Shown: positions 49,585 to 54,904 of the stretch, piece by piece | Layout of the letters: each line of letters begins with the position of its first letter | Numbering within the stretch: the first letter of the stretch is position 1 | Notes under the pieces: generated by a model | What the model was told of the DNA's origin: nothing | Databases searched by the model: none | What the model saw: only the letters and a program-made list of their open reading frames with translations | Assembly (NCBI RefSeq): GCF_001684965.1 | Contig: NZ_MAYG01000001.1 | Coordinates: 2,852,001 to 2,916,000 of the forward strand | Source of the DNA: Chryseobacterium arthrosphaerae | GTDB taxonomy: Bacteria; Bacteroidota; Bacteroidia; Flavobacteriales; Weeksellaceae | Reading direction: 5' to 3' | Length of the DNA stretch: 64,000 nucleotides | Program-made: the position numbers and the translations under genes

Positions 49585-50604
49585 ATGAGTACCGAAACAT
49601 TAGAAAAAGCTAAATCTGCAATTCCTGTAAAAGGTTTTCTGGATATAAAAGATATTGCCATTCCTCAGGGAGAAGAACTGGTAAAAGCTATTCTTAAGCT
49701 TAAAGAAGAAAAGAATGCTGTCATTCTTGCTCACTATTACCAGCCGGGAGAAATTCAGGATATCGCTGATTTCCTTGGAGATTCTTTACAGCTGGCAAGA
49801 CAGGCTAAAGAAACAAATGCTGACATGATCGTATTCTGTGGAGTACACTTCATGGCTGAAGCTGCCAAAATCCTGAACCCAACTAAAAAAGTAGTTCTTC
49901 CGGATACTATGGCAGGCTGCTCTCTGGCAGACGGATGTTCCGGAGAAGGACTGAGAAAGATGCGTGAACAGCACCCCAATGCCCTGATCGCCACTTACAT
50001 CAACTGTAATGCAGAAACCAAAGCCGAAAGTGATATCATCGTCACCAGCTCAAATGCTGAAACAGTAATTGAAGCCCTTCCAAAAGACAGACCTATCATT
50101 TTTGCACCGGATAAAAACCTTGGAAGATATCTTTCTAAGAAAACCGGCCGTGATATGATCCTTTGGGATGGCAGCTGTGTAGTGCATGAGGCATTCTCTA
50201 TGGAAAGAATTGCAAAACAACTGGCAGACAACCCGGATGCAAAACTGATTGCGCACCCTGAAAGTGAAGAGGCTGTTCTTAAGCTGGCCCACTTCATAGG
50301 TTCTACTTCTGCCCTGTTGAATTATGTAGAGAAAGACGACTGCCAGAAATTCATCATCGCTACAGAAGAAGGTATTCTGCACGAAATGAGAAAACGTGCT
50401 CCTCATAAAGAATTAATTCCTGCCCTTGTTTTTGATGAAAGCTGCAACTGTTCAGAATGTTTCTACATGAAACGCAACACCATGGAGAAACTGTACTTAT
50501 GTATGAAGTATGAACTTCCTGAGATTCTCATCGACGAAGAATTAAGATTAAAAGCATTGAAACCTATTGAGGCCATGCTTGATCTTTCAAAAAGCATAAA
50601 ATAA
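49585..50604 (+). CDS. nadA: quinolinate synthase A
   Basis: NAD synthesis: condenses iminoaspartate with DHAP to quinolinate, using a [4Fe-4S] cluster. 339 residues. The three likely cluster Cys are C112 (MAGCSLADGC), C198 (WDGSCVVHEAF) and C292 (CNCSECFYMKRN). Also AHYYQPGEIQDIADFLGDSL and YINCNAETKAESDIIVTSSN. No nadB or nadC beside it. Followed by a terminator. Confidence 0.95.
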   Translation: MSTETLEKAKSAIPVKGFLDIKDIAIPQGEELVKAILKLKEEKNAVILAHYYQPGEIQDIADFLGDSLQLARQAKETNADMIVFCGVHFMAEAAKILNPTKKVVLPDTMAGCSLADGCSGEGLRKMREQHPNALIATYINCNAETKAESDIIVTSSNAETVIEALPKDRPIIFAPDKNLGRYLSKKTGRDMILWDGSCVVHEAFSMERIAKQLADNPDAKLIAHPESEEAVLKLAHFIGSTSALLNYVEKDDCQKFIIATEEGILHEMRKRAPHKELIPALVFDESCNCSECFYMKRNTMEKLYLCMKYELPEILIDEELRLKALKPIEAMLDLSKSIK

Positions 50605-50608
50605 AACG

Positions 50609-50642
50609 AAGCGGCTGCCTCAGAAAGGCAGCAGCTTTATTT
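50609..50642. terminator. terminator between nadA and the peptide cluster
   Basis: Inverted repeat AAGCGGCTGCCT / AGGCAGCAGCTT (one mismatch) with T-rich sequence on both outer sides; can end nadA and the minus-strand peptide operon. Confidence 0.75.
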
Positions 50643-50664: not shown

Positions 50665-50868
50665 TTAAGACACTCCCCCATCCATACATTCTATACTTAC
50701 GATAACGCACATTTTGCAGCGTAAAGGAAGCATATGATAGGCATCACACGGAGCATCATTAGGACCGTTTCCATAAGTTGTATTTCTTGGACATCCTGTA
50801 CAGTTGGCCCCTGCAGCTCCCTGTAATTCGCCCAGTTGCTGCCTGCTCAGTTTCTTTAAATTTTTCAT
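50665..50868 (-). CDS. Cys-rich bacteriocin-like peptide 1
   Basis: 67 residues. Leader MKNLKKLSRQQLGELQG is of the LSRxxL type with a degenerate cleavage site (GAAG at 17-20). The mature part has six Cys at 23, 26, 41, 51, 54 and 61: CTGCP, YGNGP, CDAYHMLPLRC, KMCVIVSIEC. The pattern (spacing 3, 15, 10, 3, 7) is nearly the same as in peptide 2. Last gene of a four-gene minus-strand row. A secreted peptide is likely; activity unknown. Confidence 0.78.
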   Translation of the reverse strand: MKNLKKLSRQQLGELQGAAGANCTGCPRNTTYGNGPNDAPCDAYHMLPLRCKMCVIVSIECMDGGVS

Positions 50869-50909
50869 AGCCGTTTTTAATTTATCCGTTAATATCGACC
50901 TTTAATTTT

Positions 50910-51119
50910 TTAGTTATAAAAGTCAGAATAATCAGGGCCATAGCAATCTGCACTTACATCTACACAGTTTCTGCAGTTAGCCGGTAAACTCCAGTAGTTC
51001 CAGCAGTTATGGGTATATTCAGGTCCGTCCCCATAGTTTCCTGTTGTTGGGCATCCTGCGCATCCTGCCATTCCTTTACCTTTAATATCTTTTAATTTTG
51101 TTCTTGATAATTTTCTCAT
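50910..51119 (-). CDS. Cys-rich bacteriocin-like peptide 2
   Basis: 69 residues. Short leader MRKLSRTKLKDIKGKGMAG, then CAGCP, YGDGP, CWNYWSLPANC, RNCVDVSADC. Cys at 20, 23, 39, 49, 52 and 59 (spacing 3, 16, 10, 3, 7). Aromatic acidic tail ending DYSDFYN. Clear paralogue of peptide 1, 41 bp upstream of it. Confidence 0.78.
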   Translation of the reverse strand: MRKLSRTKLKDIKGKGMAGCAGCPTTGNYGDGPEYTHNCWNYWSLPANCRNCVDVSADCYGPDYSDFYN

Positions 51120-51153
51120 ATTGTTAAGTTTATTTGATTTATTTTAATACATA

Positions 51154-51324
51154 TTACAGCATCGGAGCATAGCAGGTTCCTCCCGGCTTCAGCCAGCAGC
51201 CCCATCCGCCTTGACGGAAGCATACAAACTGTTCACCGCCACAGGCTTCAATCTGGATAGCAGTAAAGCCGCCACTGATACTTTTCTTTTCCTCCCTTGA
51301 TAATTTTTTAATGACTGTTTTCAT
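51154..51324 (-). CDS. double-glycine leader peptide 3 (short ORF)
   Basis: 56 residues; found by hand. Leader MKTVIKKLSREEKKSISGG ends in a canonical double glycine at 18-19. The mature part (37 residues) has four Cys at 28, 35, 43 and 51 and is rich in Gly and Trp (GGWGCWLKPGGTC). It does not share the scaffold of peptides 1, 2 and 4. Gaps to neighbours are 34 and 50 bp. Confidence 0.75.
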   Translation of the reverse strand: MKTVIKKLSREEKKSISGGFTAIQIEACGGEQFVCFRQGGWGCWLKPGGTCYAPML

Positions 51325-51374
51325 GATTTATTGATTTTAAGTTGATAATGGATTTAATTTTCTATTACTTTTCC

Positions 51375-51572
51375 TTAACGGGGGTCAAAGCATTCATAGC
51401 TTACCAAAACCCTCATTTTGCAGCACTCAGGTAAAGCATAATAATCGGCGCATGATCTCGGCTGATCCGGTCCGTAAGGTCCGGCAGGACAATATTCAAA
51501 ACAGTCGTTGATATCATGACCACCATTAATTGATTTTAAATTCTCTCTGTTTAATTTCTTTGATTTTTTCAT
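51375..51572 (-). CDS. Cys-rich double-glycine leader peptide 4
   Basis: 65 residues. Leader MKKSKKLNRENLKSINGG with GG at 17-18. Mature part CFEYCP, PYGPD, CADYYALPECC, KMRVLVSYEC. Cys at 24, 28, 41, 50, 51 and 61. It fits the scaffold of peptides 1 and 2, except that the Cys expected at 54 is Arg and an extra Cys stands at 50. Probably the first gene of the operon 4-3-2-1. Confidence 0.78.
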   Translation of the reverse strand: MKKSKKLNRENLKSINGGHDINDCFEYCPAGPYGPDQPRSCADYYALPECCKMRVLVSYECFDPR

Positions 51573-51650
51573 AATGTTTTGATTTAGTTTGTTTTATAAA
51601 TATAATAAAAACATTGTACTGTAAGCAAAAATTAATCACAATCGGTAGAA
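51573..51650 (-). promoter_or_regulatory. promoter region of peptide operon 4-3-2-1 (copy A)
   Basis: On the minus strand: TTTG, about 20 bp, TATATTTA, then the leader and ATG. The whole stretch is similar to the region before peptide 5, including AATTAATCACAA-type flanks. Confidence 0.5.
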
Positions 51651-51725
51651 ATAATAGAAAAGCACCGTAAAATATCGCTTTCTGATATTGAGTCTCAGGT
51701 CCTGAATCAATCTTGATCAATCTTT

Positions 51726-51923
51726 CTAACCTTCAAGAACCATACAGCTCCCCGGAACAGACGGATCATAAGGATAAAGATAAAAACAGACTTTACGTCC
51801 TCTTAAATCTGTGCATATTGCACAACCTTTCGGCCCGCAGTCAAGATCAACAGCACAGCTGTCCATTGTACCCCCAATAATAGCTCTTAAACTTTCTCTG
51901 TTTAATTTTTTTGAATTTTTCAT
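51726..51923 (-). CDS. Cys-rich double-glycine leader peptide 5
   Basis: 65 residues. Leader MKNSKKLNRESLRAIIGG (GG at 17-18) nearly the same as that of peptide 4, but the mature part is different: DSCAVDLDCGPKGCAICTD, GRKVCFYLYPYDPS and a last Cys at 60; six Cys in all (23, 29, 34, 37, 46, 60). It has its own promoter copy and a gap of about 150 bp to peptide 4. Confidence 0.75.
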   Translation of the reverse strand: MKNSKKLNRESLRAIIGGTMDSCAVDLDCGPKGCAICTDLRGRKVCFYLYPYDPSVPGSCMVLEG

Positions 51924-51990
51924 AATGATTTGATTTAGTTTGCCTTATAAATATAACAAAACATTTTGTGGTATGCAAAAAATTAATCAC
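51924..51990 (-). promoter_or_regulatory. promoter region of peptide 5 (copy B)
   Basis: Minus strand: TTTG, 20 bp, TATATTTA, leader, ATG. Second copy of the promoter upstream of peptide 4; the duplication therefore took in promoter and leader-peptide codons. Confidence 0.5.
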
Positions 51991-52237
51991 AACCATAAGA
52001 TTTAACAATAAAGGATTGTAAAAATGTTTTTAATTAGGTAAGGGAGTGCTACAATTTTCACGACTGAATTTAAAACAGAATCGTCCCGATTATTCGATAT
52101 GAAACATGATGCAAAAGAATTCATCAATAATTGCTTTTAACTTATATTATTGGAAAACAAAACACCCTTTTAACACAGGTAATTGATTTTTAATGATTTA
52201 ATTTTTGAAGAAAACGTGCCTGTTTCAAAAAAATTTG

Positions 52238-52245
52238 TACATTTG
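52238..52245 (+). promoter_or_regulatory. -7 promoter element of the threonine operon
   Basis: TACATTTG, exact TAnnTTTG, 10 bp before the leader-peptide ATG at 52256. Between 51990 and 52237 I see no gene. Confidence 0.5.
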
Positions 52246-52255
52246 TTCCGTTACA

Positions 52256-52360
52256 ATGAGTTTATTTAGAAACATATCTGATATTTCTATCCTGAAATCA
52301 CCTATTTCAGGAGTATCTTCTGTTTCTACATTCACAACAACTACAACAACTACCCCATAA
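52256..52360 (+). CDS. thr operon leader peptide
   Basis: 34 residues, MSLFRNISDISILKSPISGV then a tail reading STFTTTTTTTP. Eight of the last ten codons are Thr or flank a Thr run (ACA ACA ACT ACA ACA ACT ACC in a row). A ribosome short of charged tRNA-Thr would stall here. Directly followed by hairpins and then thrA, so this is very likely an attenuation peptide. Named by role, not by homology to E. coli thrL. Confidence 0.82.
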   Translation: MSLFRNISDISILKSPISGVSSVSTFTTTTTTTP

Positions 52361-52415: not shown

Positions 52416-52453
52416 AACTATTTCACTTTTACCTAACCCTAAATAAATAATTG

Positions 52454-54904
52454 ATGAAAATCTTAAAATTCGGCGGAACATCTGTCGCCAATGCTCAAAA
52501 TATTATTCTTGTAGAAAAGATTATAAAAAAAGAATCACTGAAAGACAGGATTGTTGTAATTGTATCTGCACTTCACGGCGTTACCGATCAACTGATCAAA
52601 GGGGCAGAATCTGCTTCTGCGAAAGATGAAACTTATCTTCAGATCATCAAAGCCCTCGAAGAAAAACATATTAATCTCGTAAAAGAACTGATCCCCGTGT
52701 TGGCACAAAGTTCATGGTTAAGCTTTGTTAAAAAACATTTCAATGATATTGAAGACATCTGCAATGGTATTTTTGTGCTGGGTGAACTGACAGATAAAAT
52801 AAAAGACAGAATTACTTCCTATGGCGAATTTCTTTCTTCCAGCATTATCGCAGCAAGACTTCAGCATGAAGAGCTGGACTGTTTATGGATGAACTCTGCA
52901 GAACTTATCAAAACAGACAGCAATTTTACAAATGCCAAAGTAGATTTCGCCATCACCGAAAATAATCTAAAAATCTATCTCAACGAACATCAGAACGCTG
53001 TCATTATCGGACCGGGATTCGTTGCCAGTGATCAGAAAAATAGCCCGACAACATTGGGAAGAGGCGGTTCTGATTACACAGCCTCTATCATTGCGGCAGC
53101 TATTGATGCAAAAGAATTACAGATCTGGACAGATGTAAGCGGTATGATGACTGCTGATCCCCGTCTGGCAACCAATGCCAAACCCATTGCAGAGATCTCT
53201 TATCATGAAGCGATGGAACTTTCTCATTTTGGAGCCAAAGTACTCTATCCGCCATCCATTCAGCCTGTAATGATCAGAAACATTGATCTTTTTATAAAAA
53301 ATACATTTGCTCCTGAAGCACCGGGAACGTTGATTTCTCATCATCCTAAAGTGTCAGAAAGTGAAAAACAGCAGGTAGCAGTAGGAGTTTCCAATATGAG
53401 CCGTATTGCCCTCCTTACTTTAGAAGGCAGCGGAATGGTAGGTATTCCGGGAATTTCCGCAAAGTTATTCCATTGTCTCAGCCAGGAAAAAATCAATGTC
53501 ATTCTTATCACACAAGGATCTTCCGAACATTCTATAACAATTGCCATTCATGAAAAAGATATTTTCCAGGCAGAAAATGCTATCAATTCGGCATTCGCTG
53601 ATGATATCAATATGAAAAGAGTGTATGCTGTAAAAATTGAAACCGGACTCTCTATTGTAGCACTGGTAGGAGAAAATATGAAAAGCAGAAGCGGTGTAAG
53701 CGCCAGAATGTTCAGCTGCCTCGGAAATAACGGCATCAATATAAGAGCCATAGCACAGGGCTCGTCCGAAAGGAATATCAGTATTGTCATTACAGAAAAG
53801 GACAGTAAAAAAGCGGTGAATGTACTTCATGAAGAATTCTTTGAGTCGGAAATAAAGCAAATCCATCTTTACATCTGCGGAATCGGAAATGTAGGTTCAA
53901 AGCTGATCCAGCAGATTTATGATCAGAATGCTTATCTGCAGGAAAACTTTTCAATCAATCTTAGAATTGCGGGGATCTCCAACAGCCGTAATATGCTGTT
54001 TTCAGATCAGGGGATTTCTTACGAAAACTACCTCAGCTGGAATGATCAGAGTACAAAAGCCTCTGTTCAGGATTTTGCCGGGGAGATCATATCTCGGAAC
54101 TTAAGAAACTCCGTATTTGTTGACGTCACAGCAAGCCCCGAAGTCCCGAAGGTCTATCAAAGCTTATTGGAAAGAAGCATCAATATCGTAGCCTGCAATA
54201 AAATAGCGGCTTCATCAGATTTTGAAGTGTATAAAGCACTCAAAAATACCGCCAGAAACCACAACTGCAGTTTCTATTTTGAGACCAATGTAGGAGCAGG
54301 ACTTCCGGTTATAGGAACCATCAGTGATCTGATCAAAAGTGGTGACAAAATCAACTCGATTCAGGCAGTGCTGAGCGGAACGTTAAACTTTGTCTTCAAC
54401 CATTATGACGGCAGCAGAACATTCTCTGAAGTAGTGGCACAGGCGCAGAAAGAAGGATATACAGAACCGGATCCAAGGCTTGATCTTTCCGGGACTGATG
54501 TGGCCAGAAAGATCCTGATCCTTGCCCGTGAAGCAGGATATCCTCTGGAGTTTAAAGATATTGAGAATATCGGTTTTCTGCCGGAAGAATGCATGCAGGG
54601 AGATGTAGATGATTTTTATGAAAAGCTGACACAGTATGAGGATCATTTTAAAAACCTTTTTAATAATGCCAAACAGGAAGGCAAAATATTAAAATATACG
54701 GCAGAGTTCAAAGAGGGAAAGGCAAAAGTAGGATTACAGCATGTAGCCCCTGACAGTGATCTCTACCATCTTTACGGCAAAGACAATATCGTCATTTTTA
54801 AAACCATTAGGTATTCTGAACAGCCATTAGTGGTAAAAGGAGCAGGAGCGGGAGCTGAAGTAACCGCCAGTGGAGTTTTTGCAGATATTATCCGTTCAAT
54901 TTAA
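52454..54904 (+). CDS. thrA: bifunctional aspartokinase / homoserine dehydrogenase
   Basis: First and third steps from aspartate to threonine. 816 residues from the ATG at 52454. Aspartokinase half (1-460): KILKFGGTSVANAQNI, TTLGRGGSDYTASIIAAAID, two ACT domains (SMVGIPGISAKLF-type and GENMKSRSGVSARMFSCLGN) for feedback by threonine. Homoserine dehydrogenase half (about 465-816): LYICGIGNVGSKLIQQ nucleotide loop, NIVACNKIAASSDFEVYKAL, FYFETNVGAGLPVIGTISDL. First structural gene of thrABC, behind the leader peptide. Confidence 0.96.
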   Translation: MKILKFGGTSVANAQNIILVEKIIKKESLKDRIVVIVSALHGVTDQLIKGAESASAKDETYLQIIKALEEKHINLVKELIPVLAQSSWLSFVKKHFNDIEDICNGIFVLGELTDKIKDRITSYGEFLSSSIIAARLQHEELDCLWMNSAELIKTDSNFTNAKVDFAITENNLKIYLNEHQNAVIIGPGFVASDQKNSPTTLGRGGSDYTASIIAAAIDAKELQIWTDVSGMMTADPRLATNAKPIAEISYHEAMELSHFGAKVLYPPSIQPVMIRNIDLFIKNTFAPEAPGTLISHHPKVSESEKQQVAVGVSNMSRIALLTLEGSGMVGIPGISAKLFHCLSQEKINVILITQGSSEHSITIAIHEKDIFQAENAINSAFADDINMKRVYAVKIETGLSIVALVGENMKSRSGVSARMFSCLGNNGINIRAIAQGSSERNISIVITEKDSKKAVNVLHEEFFESEIKQIHLYICGIGNVGSKLIQQIYDQNAYLQENFSINLRIAGISNSRNMLFSDQGISYENYLSWNDQSTKASVQDFAGEIISRNLRNSVFVDVTASPEVPKVYQSLLERSINIVACNKIAASSDFEVYKALKNTARNHNCSFYFETNVGAGLPVIGTISDLIKSGDKINSIQAVLSGTLNFVFNHYDGSRTFSEVVAQAQKEGYTEPDPRLDLSGTDVARKILILAREAGYPLEFKDIENIGFLPEECMQGDVDDFYEKLTQYEDHFKNLFNNAKQEGKILKYTAEFKEGKAKVGLQHVAPDSDLYHLYGKDNIVIFKTIRYSEQPLVVKGAGAGAEVTASGVFADIIRSI

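Follow-up and report, generated by a model that had tools for sequence, protein, structure and literature searches.

The window analyzed here is a stretch of 64,000 nucleotides from the genome of Chryseobacterium arthrosphaerae (the source genome). At positions 50665 to 51923 of the window, five leader-peptide genes follow one another on the minus strand, and all of the open reading frames (ORFs) that an earlier note on this DNA had claimed are present. Their leaders are 15 to 19 aa long and their cores 37 to 54 aa. On both sides lie genes of another kind, which we take to be nadA (quinolinate synthase) and a fused aspartokinase/homoserine dehydrogenase gene ("thrA" here). The features are as follows, with lengths from the ORF translations.

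49585..50604, plus strand: presumed nadA, flanking gene and conserved anchor of the array
50614..50632, no strand assigned: GCTGCCT-TTCTG-AGGCAGC stem, then a T-rich stretch, read directly from the sequence
50665..50868, minus strand: peptide 1, 67 aa, scaffold subfamily I, leader MKNLKKLSRQQLGELQGA, Cys spacing 3-15-10-3-7
50910..51119, minus strand: peptide 2, 69 aa, scaffold subfamily II, leader ending in GK, Cys spacing 3-16-10-3-7
51154..51324, minus strand: peptide 3, 56 aa, separate four-Cys class FTxxQIxxCGG..VCF..GG..WGC..PGGxCYxPM
51375..51572, minus strand: peptide 4, 65 aa, scaffold subfamily III (CxxxCPxGPYGP...LPECCKxRVLVSxEC), homologues found
51573..51647, minus strand: upstream block of peptide 4, near-copy of the peptide 5 block, read by eye
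51726..51923, minus strand: peptide 5, 65 aa, separate six-Cys class CxVDLDCGPxGCAxCT...
51924..51998, minus strand: upstream block of peptide 5 with the TATATTTA element, candidate promoter, read by eye
52451..54904, plus strand: presumed aspartokinase/homoserine dehydrogenase gene, the other anchor

The TATATTTA block, nearly repeated ahead of peptides 5 and 4, is probably a promoter, and the stem between peptide 1 and the convergent nadA appears terminator-like. Just ahead of the aspartokinase/homoserine dehydrogenase gene lies a Thr-rich frame (52205-52360, ending TTTTTTTP), which we take to be thrL-like in its resemblance to a threonine attenuation leader peptide; the same kind of frame precedes the aspartokinase gene in all 12 loci read.

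The earlier note had given the five leaders a single pattern. They are of one type overall but do not follow that pattern letter for letter, peptide 3 having K at an expected L and peptide 1 having L at an expected I. The GG ending ascribed to three of them is found in peptides 3, 4, and 5; peptide 1 has GA and peptide 2 has GK, an ending that is unusual for C39 cleavage. The leader is that of the NCBIfam model NF047798 (leader_Chryseo, "bacteriocin-like protein"), the cut-off of which is a whole-protein score of 23.5 bits; peptides 1, 4, and 5 pass it with 32.3, 25.0, and 23.6 bits, and peptides 2 and 3 miss it with 13.4 and 20.8 bits. The cysteine scaffold had been called uncatalogued, and there is indeed no accepted Pfam or NCBIfam model for it; the leader is already catalogued. 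Several relatives already bear the name "bacteriocin-like protein"; the model itself consists of 18 leader residues only and is silent on core, export, and function. In the wider family, the leader is found in 64 of 197 genomes and in 8 of 33 genera.

Peptides 1, 2, and 4 were said to share a cysteine scaffold. The Cys spacings of peptides 1 and 2 are exactly as claimed, and so is the swapped Cys of peptide 4, which keeps six Cys, the fifth (CKMC) being replaced by one four residues earlier (CCKMR). The three peptides are homologous with the leaders removed: core-only subfamily profiles align with probabilities of 98.3 (I-II), 97.2 (I-III), and 94.3 (II-III), against a maximum of 21.1 in 30 column shuffles per pair. 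Because leaderless core profiles align far above the shuffles, the common scaffold reflects homology and not leader similarity.

A search with peptide 1 returned 8 proteins, and a profile of peptides 1, 2, and 4 with their relatives returned 69 at an E-value of ≤10 (P0002 to P0013 are homologues of peptide 1); the organism is Chryseobacterium wherever the source name shows one. The scaffold proteins form three subfamilies with intermediates (P0015, P0019, and P0033); judged by their cores, the relatives of peptide 2 group with peptide 1. Five Cys are invariant in an alignment of 62 sequences, the sixth standing at position 54 in subfamilies I and II or at position 50 in subfamily III. P0001, which comes from other sequence data, is almost identical to peptide 1 but has Trp in place of the first scaffold Cys and so retains five. 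No accepted Pfam match was found to the five peptides, and the frequent family matches among the 62 scaffold members are to leader models only, with stray core matches being weak. NF047792 (CCPGW putative bacteriocin, cut-off of 80 bits) reached at best 24.3 bits, in the leader part only (best E-value among the 62 members, 2.3e-5), and PF10439 (Bacteriocin_IIc, cut-off of 27.1 bits) scored 13.7 and 16.3 bits with peptides 4 and 5, with none listed for the others. The core-profile search of the genus, with peptide 2 as its top match (E-value of 1.7e-23), detected the scaffold in 109 of 148 genomes, so the homologues in other genomes on which the earlier note had staked its reading do exist.

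The location of the array is conserved as well. In 14 named Chryseobacterium loci, which came from the peptide 1 search and are not an unbiased sample, the array adjoins nadA, and the aspartokinase gene lies at the other side in 12. The class of peptide 3 is matched in 12 of these 14 loci (67 to 78% identity in the 10 aligned), and that of peptide 5 has relatives at 4 other loci. Each of the 148 genus genomes has one nadA match. The scaffold matches listed number 150 in 90 genomes, with 19 more matching genomes not included. For 146 of these matches, the distance to nadA is no more than 8 kb; two of the remaining four are about 10 to 11 kb away and two are in a genome with nadA at a contig end. 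The nadA arrays hold 1 to 9 leader genes each (74 in 15 genomes), 73 of the 74 with an even number of Cys (genes with fewer than 3 core cysteines left out); in one genome (G029), both anchors are separated by a gap of 325 bases with no leader gene between them. Recurrent nonleader ORFs in the nadA intervals listed, as read by eye, are the Thr-rich ORF of the aspartokinase gene and, in 2 of the 14 loci, a secreted-looking ORF of 160 to 167 aa between array and nadA (L064, 8135-8638; L066, 6244-6726).

The earlier note had read the peptides as a family under diversification. If this is meant as fast-changing cores, it is not supported: the ortholog-like ones are strongly conserved. The median omega is 0.11 for the cores (221 usable of 244 ortholog-like pairs, none above 1) and omega is likewise 0.11 for the leaders (169 usable of 244), values that are biased low by the selection of pairs at ≥62% identity and that were obtained at 0.58 synonymous differences per site, near saturation. 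These values indicate purifying selection on the ortholog-like cores and argue against fast diversification. The diversity arises rather at a fixed locus, where genes are duplicated in tandem and whole gene classes are gained or lost.

The array in the window is one of many in its genome. NF047798 gave 57 matches at an E-value of ≤10, 30 of them above the cut-off; two of the weak matches sit in long frames and were taken as chance, leaving 55 short precursors, which occupy 35 sites (separated by more than 3 kb) and form 40 core classes by a shuffle-based threshold. The number of Cys is 2, 4, 6, or 8 in 53 precursors and 5 in two, and 51 even versus 2 odd counts among 53 scored correspond to a p of 3e-13 under a coin-toss null that ignores kinship among copies. 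One of the precursors (L007, 1501-1785) has a core with a long Gly/Val repeat followed by four cysteines. An Rfam cis-regulatory motif, RF02914 (DUF805b RNA), precedes leader-peptide genes, with six sites in the source genome (L005, 1577-1609; L006, 1575-1607; L015, 1447-1479; L018, 1446-1479; L035, 1050-1082; and L040, 7431-7463) and 21 matches in 13 of 13 machinery loci searched (L069 to L081); at the gathering threshold it has no match in the window or in 12 nadA loci. RF02914 may be a regulatory element of part of the leader-peptide set.

Where, then, are the factors for export? The earlier note saw no transporter or protease in the window, placed these factors elsewhere, and advised a search of the genome for a peptidase-containing ABC transporter. 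For C39 and VKOR, all matches in the source genome are indeed on other contigs. There are two C39 matches, both outside the window. One is an exporter of the NHLP type, with 1049 bits to TIGR03796. The second lies on contig C32 and is flanked by two leader genes in an operon with the order ATP-grasp and SPASM enzymes, VKOR-thioredoxin fusion, leader peptide, exporter, leader peptide, and HlyD. This exporter, presumably a peptidase-containing ABC transporter of the PCAT1/ComA type, matches the bacteriocin transporter 4ry2 from end to end (374 bits, residues 2-723), and its C39 Cys and His motifs are visible. Two of the 55 precursors lie at the exporter and 53 away from it.

We examined 20 machinery loci, 17 chosen for closely spaced matches and three exceptions. 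The order VKOR-thioredoxin fusion, leader gene(s), exporter, and HlyD is kept in all 17 chosen loci and in the source locus, and VKOR lies within 8 kb of C39 in at least 99 of the 110 genomes with both listed. In L040 (955-3130), grasp-with-spasm maturases of the ATP-grasp (TIGR04192) and SPASM (TIGR04193) types are encoded directly upstream of the VKOR fusion. A separate locus (L052, 328-9942) encodes a second export system, of the NHLP type, with two ABC proteins, HlyD, and an outer-membrane efflux protein, together with regulators of the cNMP-binding and AraC types and a small ORF whose nitrile-hydratase-alpha match falls just below the cut-off.

The VKOR-thioredoxin fusion beside the exporter on C32 is a protein of 503 aa with the hallmarks of the disulfide-forming VKOR-DsbA type, namely, VKOR and thioredoxin domains, a loop Cys pair, and two CxxC motifs; its VKOR and thioredoxin part has six redox cysteines. 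The N-terminal part is better conserved than the rest, with a mean majority identity among 40 homologues of 91.6% for residues 1-110 (96.5% for residues 20-75, the best conserved) versus 87% for the VKOR and 77% for the thioredoxin domain. It is also devoid of Cys: the first Cys of the reference homologue is residue 175, and the first 130 residues are Cys-free in 24 of the 25 homologues listed, the exception having a Cys at 125, after the domain. The source fusion matches C39 weakly at its N terminus (13.1 bits). A divergent homologue in G053 matches PF03412 above the cut-off (22.9 bits, profile positions 47-132), leaving out the N-terminal region with the catalytic Cys; a scan of 8 further homologues gave a C39 match in L079 only, below the cut-off. 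In a comparison of the N terminus with the C39 profile, 1 of 20 shuffles scored higher. Structure prediction, at low model confidence, gave a helix followed by strands, which is compatible with C39, and a fold search barely covered this part. The N-terminal part of the fusion may be a C39-like domain, weakly matched, that lacks cysteines and would be peptidase-dead. Peptidase-dead C39-like substrate-binding domains are known from HlyB.

Leader genes and machinery occur together across the genus. At least three leader matches (E-value of ≤0.01; match counts per genome are lower bounds) are present in 135 of the 148 genomes, and all 135 have a C39 match with an E-value of 1.3e-34 or better and a VKOR match. 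The same combination is found in 3 of the 13 leader-poor genomes (G029, G053, and G089); the other 10 have no VKOR and no C39 match better than 4e-32. The association has a Fisher p of 3e-13 with thresholds chosen after the data were seen. In a nadA tree of 28 genomes, 9 of the 10 machinery-less genomes fall into one clade and the tenth stands beside G053, and because they mostly share one clade, few independent events lie behind the co-occurrence. A relaxed leader search of the 13 leader-poor genomes, followed by reading of 11 fetched loci, recovered at least one weakly scoring six-Cys leader precursor each in G029 and G089. It also recovered one in G087, which has no VKOR and a weaker C39 match, making this precursor an orphan (L089, C1:411967-412020); the other eight places read held no leader precursor. 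G053 has a C39 exporter and a divergent VKOR fusion, and no leader gene was found in it by the relaxed search and locus reading. G029 and G089 (L087 and L088) keep the VKOR fusion, the exporter, and HlyD with few leader genes detected; from fusion to exporter on the operon strand of L087, no leader-like ORF is among those listed.

The precursors, the machinery operon, their co-occurrence, and the even Cys counts are all read from the sequence itself. Together they make it fairly probable, in our view, that the system is one of leader-addressed export and oxidative folding in which one machine serves many precursors, operating like the bacteroidetocin systems, the closest that have been worked out. 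The array of five genes would then be an outlier in a genome-wide set of about 55 precursors that share a single type of leader, and this leader would direct every precursor to one machine, the genes of which are on a different contig. The C39-type ABC exporter would cut after GG or GA and export the core together with HlyD, the membrane VKOR-thioredoxin fusion would oxidize the core cysteines, and the Cys-free C39-like N terminus of the fusion would probably dock the leader. The roughly 55 scattered genes thus seem all to depend on a single export and disulfide machine encoded elsewhere, and the five peptides are probably secreted and disulfide cross-linked.

What could the peptides do? Antibacterial action like that of the bacteroidetocins is the single likeliest activity, at somewhat below an even chance, and signalling or contact with surface or host would then come next. 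A narrower proposal is that they are classical class II bacteriocins engaged in narrow-spectrum killing and an arms race, with each array a weapon cassette. The leader type, the NCBI name, the bacteroidetocin precedent, and the Bacteriocin_IIc matches, weak and below the cut-off as they are, speak for it, whereas the nadA intervals listed contain no obvious immunity gene (as read by eye; the L062 interval is unbounded), the cores are conserved, and the scaffold keeps to a single locus throughout the genus. The absence of an immunity gene is neutral with respect to killing, because bacteroidetocins are also without one; core conservation and the fixed location argue against a fast arms race, and we regard this proposal as unlikely, if worth keeping in mind. 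The peptides might instead be signals or surface or host-interaction peptides, conserved for receptor recognition in kin or host. Purifying selection of the same strength in leader and core, the fixed locus, and the many classes per genome fit this idea; however, reading of the nadA interval turned up neither a regulator nor a receptor gene in the array, and 40 core classes in one genome are many for signals, which leaves the idea possible but rather doubtful.

It is improbable that the genes encode RiPP precursors modified by grasp-with-spasm enzymes with Cys destined for thioethers. In the source genome, the VKOR fusion does have genes for both enzymes just upstream, but of the 17 chosen machinery loci, 6 have similar genes detected (two of these six with partial SPASM matches only, and locus ends may hide some) versus leader genes in 17 of 17, short ORFs beside those enzymes in L082 carry a different leader, and the even Cys counts fit disulfides better. 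Functionless duplicates, relic or neutral, would explain why gene number varies from 1 to 9 per array and why the nadA site of G029 has no leader gene, but are very hard to reconcile with the low core omega without a single ratio above 1 in 221 pairs and with a scaffold kept in 109 of 148 genomes.

Returning to leader-addressed export and folding, we tentatively hypothesize, without quite favoring it over its negation, that the set is a venom-like library. The leader would be a general shipping and folding label, read by the C39 domain of the exporter and by the dead C39 domain of the VKOR-DsbA oxidase, so that any new Cys-rich core placed behind it, wherever in the genome, would be folded and secreted. 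The nadA arrays would be nurseries in which tandem duplication yields new scaffolds, including the Cys that moved four residues between subfamilies. If this is true, a single line lets one bacterium secrete dozens of distinct disulfide-rich peptides, as a bacterial counterpart of animal venom libraries. Natural disulfide scaffolds could then be drawn from it, leader-guided oxidative folding and export would be available as a portable system, and the idea that a dead C39 domain can be a leader receptor could be tested directly. It would also mean that genome mining of exporter neighborhoods misses most precursors, as 2 of 55 adjoin the exporter in the source genome.

Several known systems share parts of this arrangement. 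The exporter is like PCAT1/ComA-type transporters; in Chryseobacterium, it would serve many unlinked precursors. Pediocin-like class IIa bacteriocins use the same exporter type. They also resemble our peptides in a GG-type leader and in the YGNG string of peptide 1, which is not kept in the subfamilies. Membership in this class was rejected, as the motif YGNGVxC, described for it (PMC6671954), is absent, peptide 1 having YGNGP and the other subfamilies YGDGP and GPYGP. Chryseobacterium also makes chryseoviridin graspetides, for which several diverse precursors and tandem precursor duplication are described and GG motifs are discussed (PMC8939145). Graspetides are ATP-grasp-modified; in the short nadA intervals, we saw no gene of the ATP-grasp type.

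Killing of Bacteroidales with BamA as the target is among the traits that define the bacteroidetocins. In their description, exporter, thiol oxidoreductase, five-TM protein, and peptide gene lie in one region, and activity is attenuated when the thiol oxidoreductase gene next to the exporter is deleted; migration under reducing conditions points to disulfides, leaders are 15 to 16 aa long, 4 Cys are present in bacteroidetocins A and B, and an immunity gene was not found (PMC6671954; see also PMC8546649). The criteria for the group are a GG leader of 15 to 16 aa, a mature peptide of 42 to 48 aa, and at least 2 Cys; the five peptides all have at least that many Cys, with leaders of 15 to 19 aa, GG in three of five, and cores of 37 to 54 aa. 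The neighbors typical of bacteroidetocin genes are a TM protein, a C39 exporter, and mostly a thiol oxidoreductase, and the window has no C39 or VKOR match. The two systems are alike in belonging to Bacteroidota, in the short double-glycine leader and Cys-containing core, in a C39 ABC exporter encoded together with a thiol oxidoreductase, and in having no obvious immunity gene. Chryseobacterium differs in its roughly 55 precursors at 35 sites, 53 of 55 away from the exporter, in leaders of mostly 15 to 25 aa, in Cys counts of 2 to 8, and in the VKOR-thioredoxin fusion and HlyD. The leader and the exporter logic are already known, whereas the cysteine scaffold and the scale on which one machine is shared look new.
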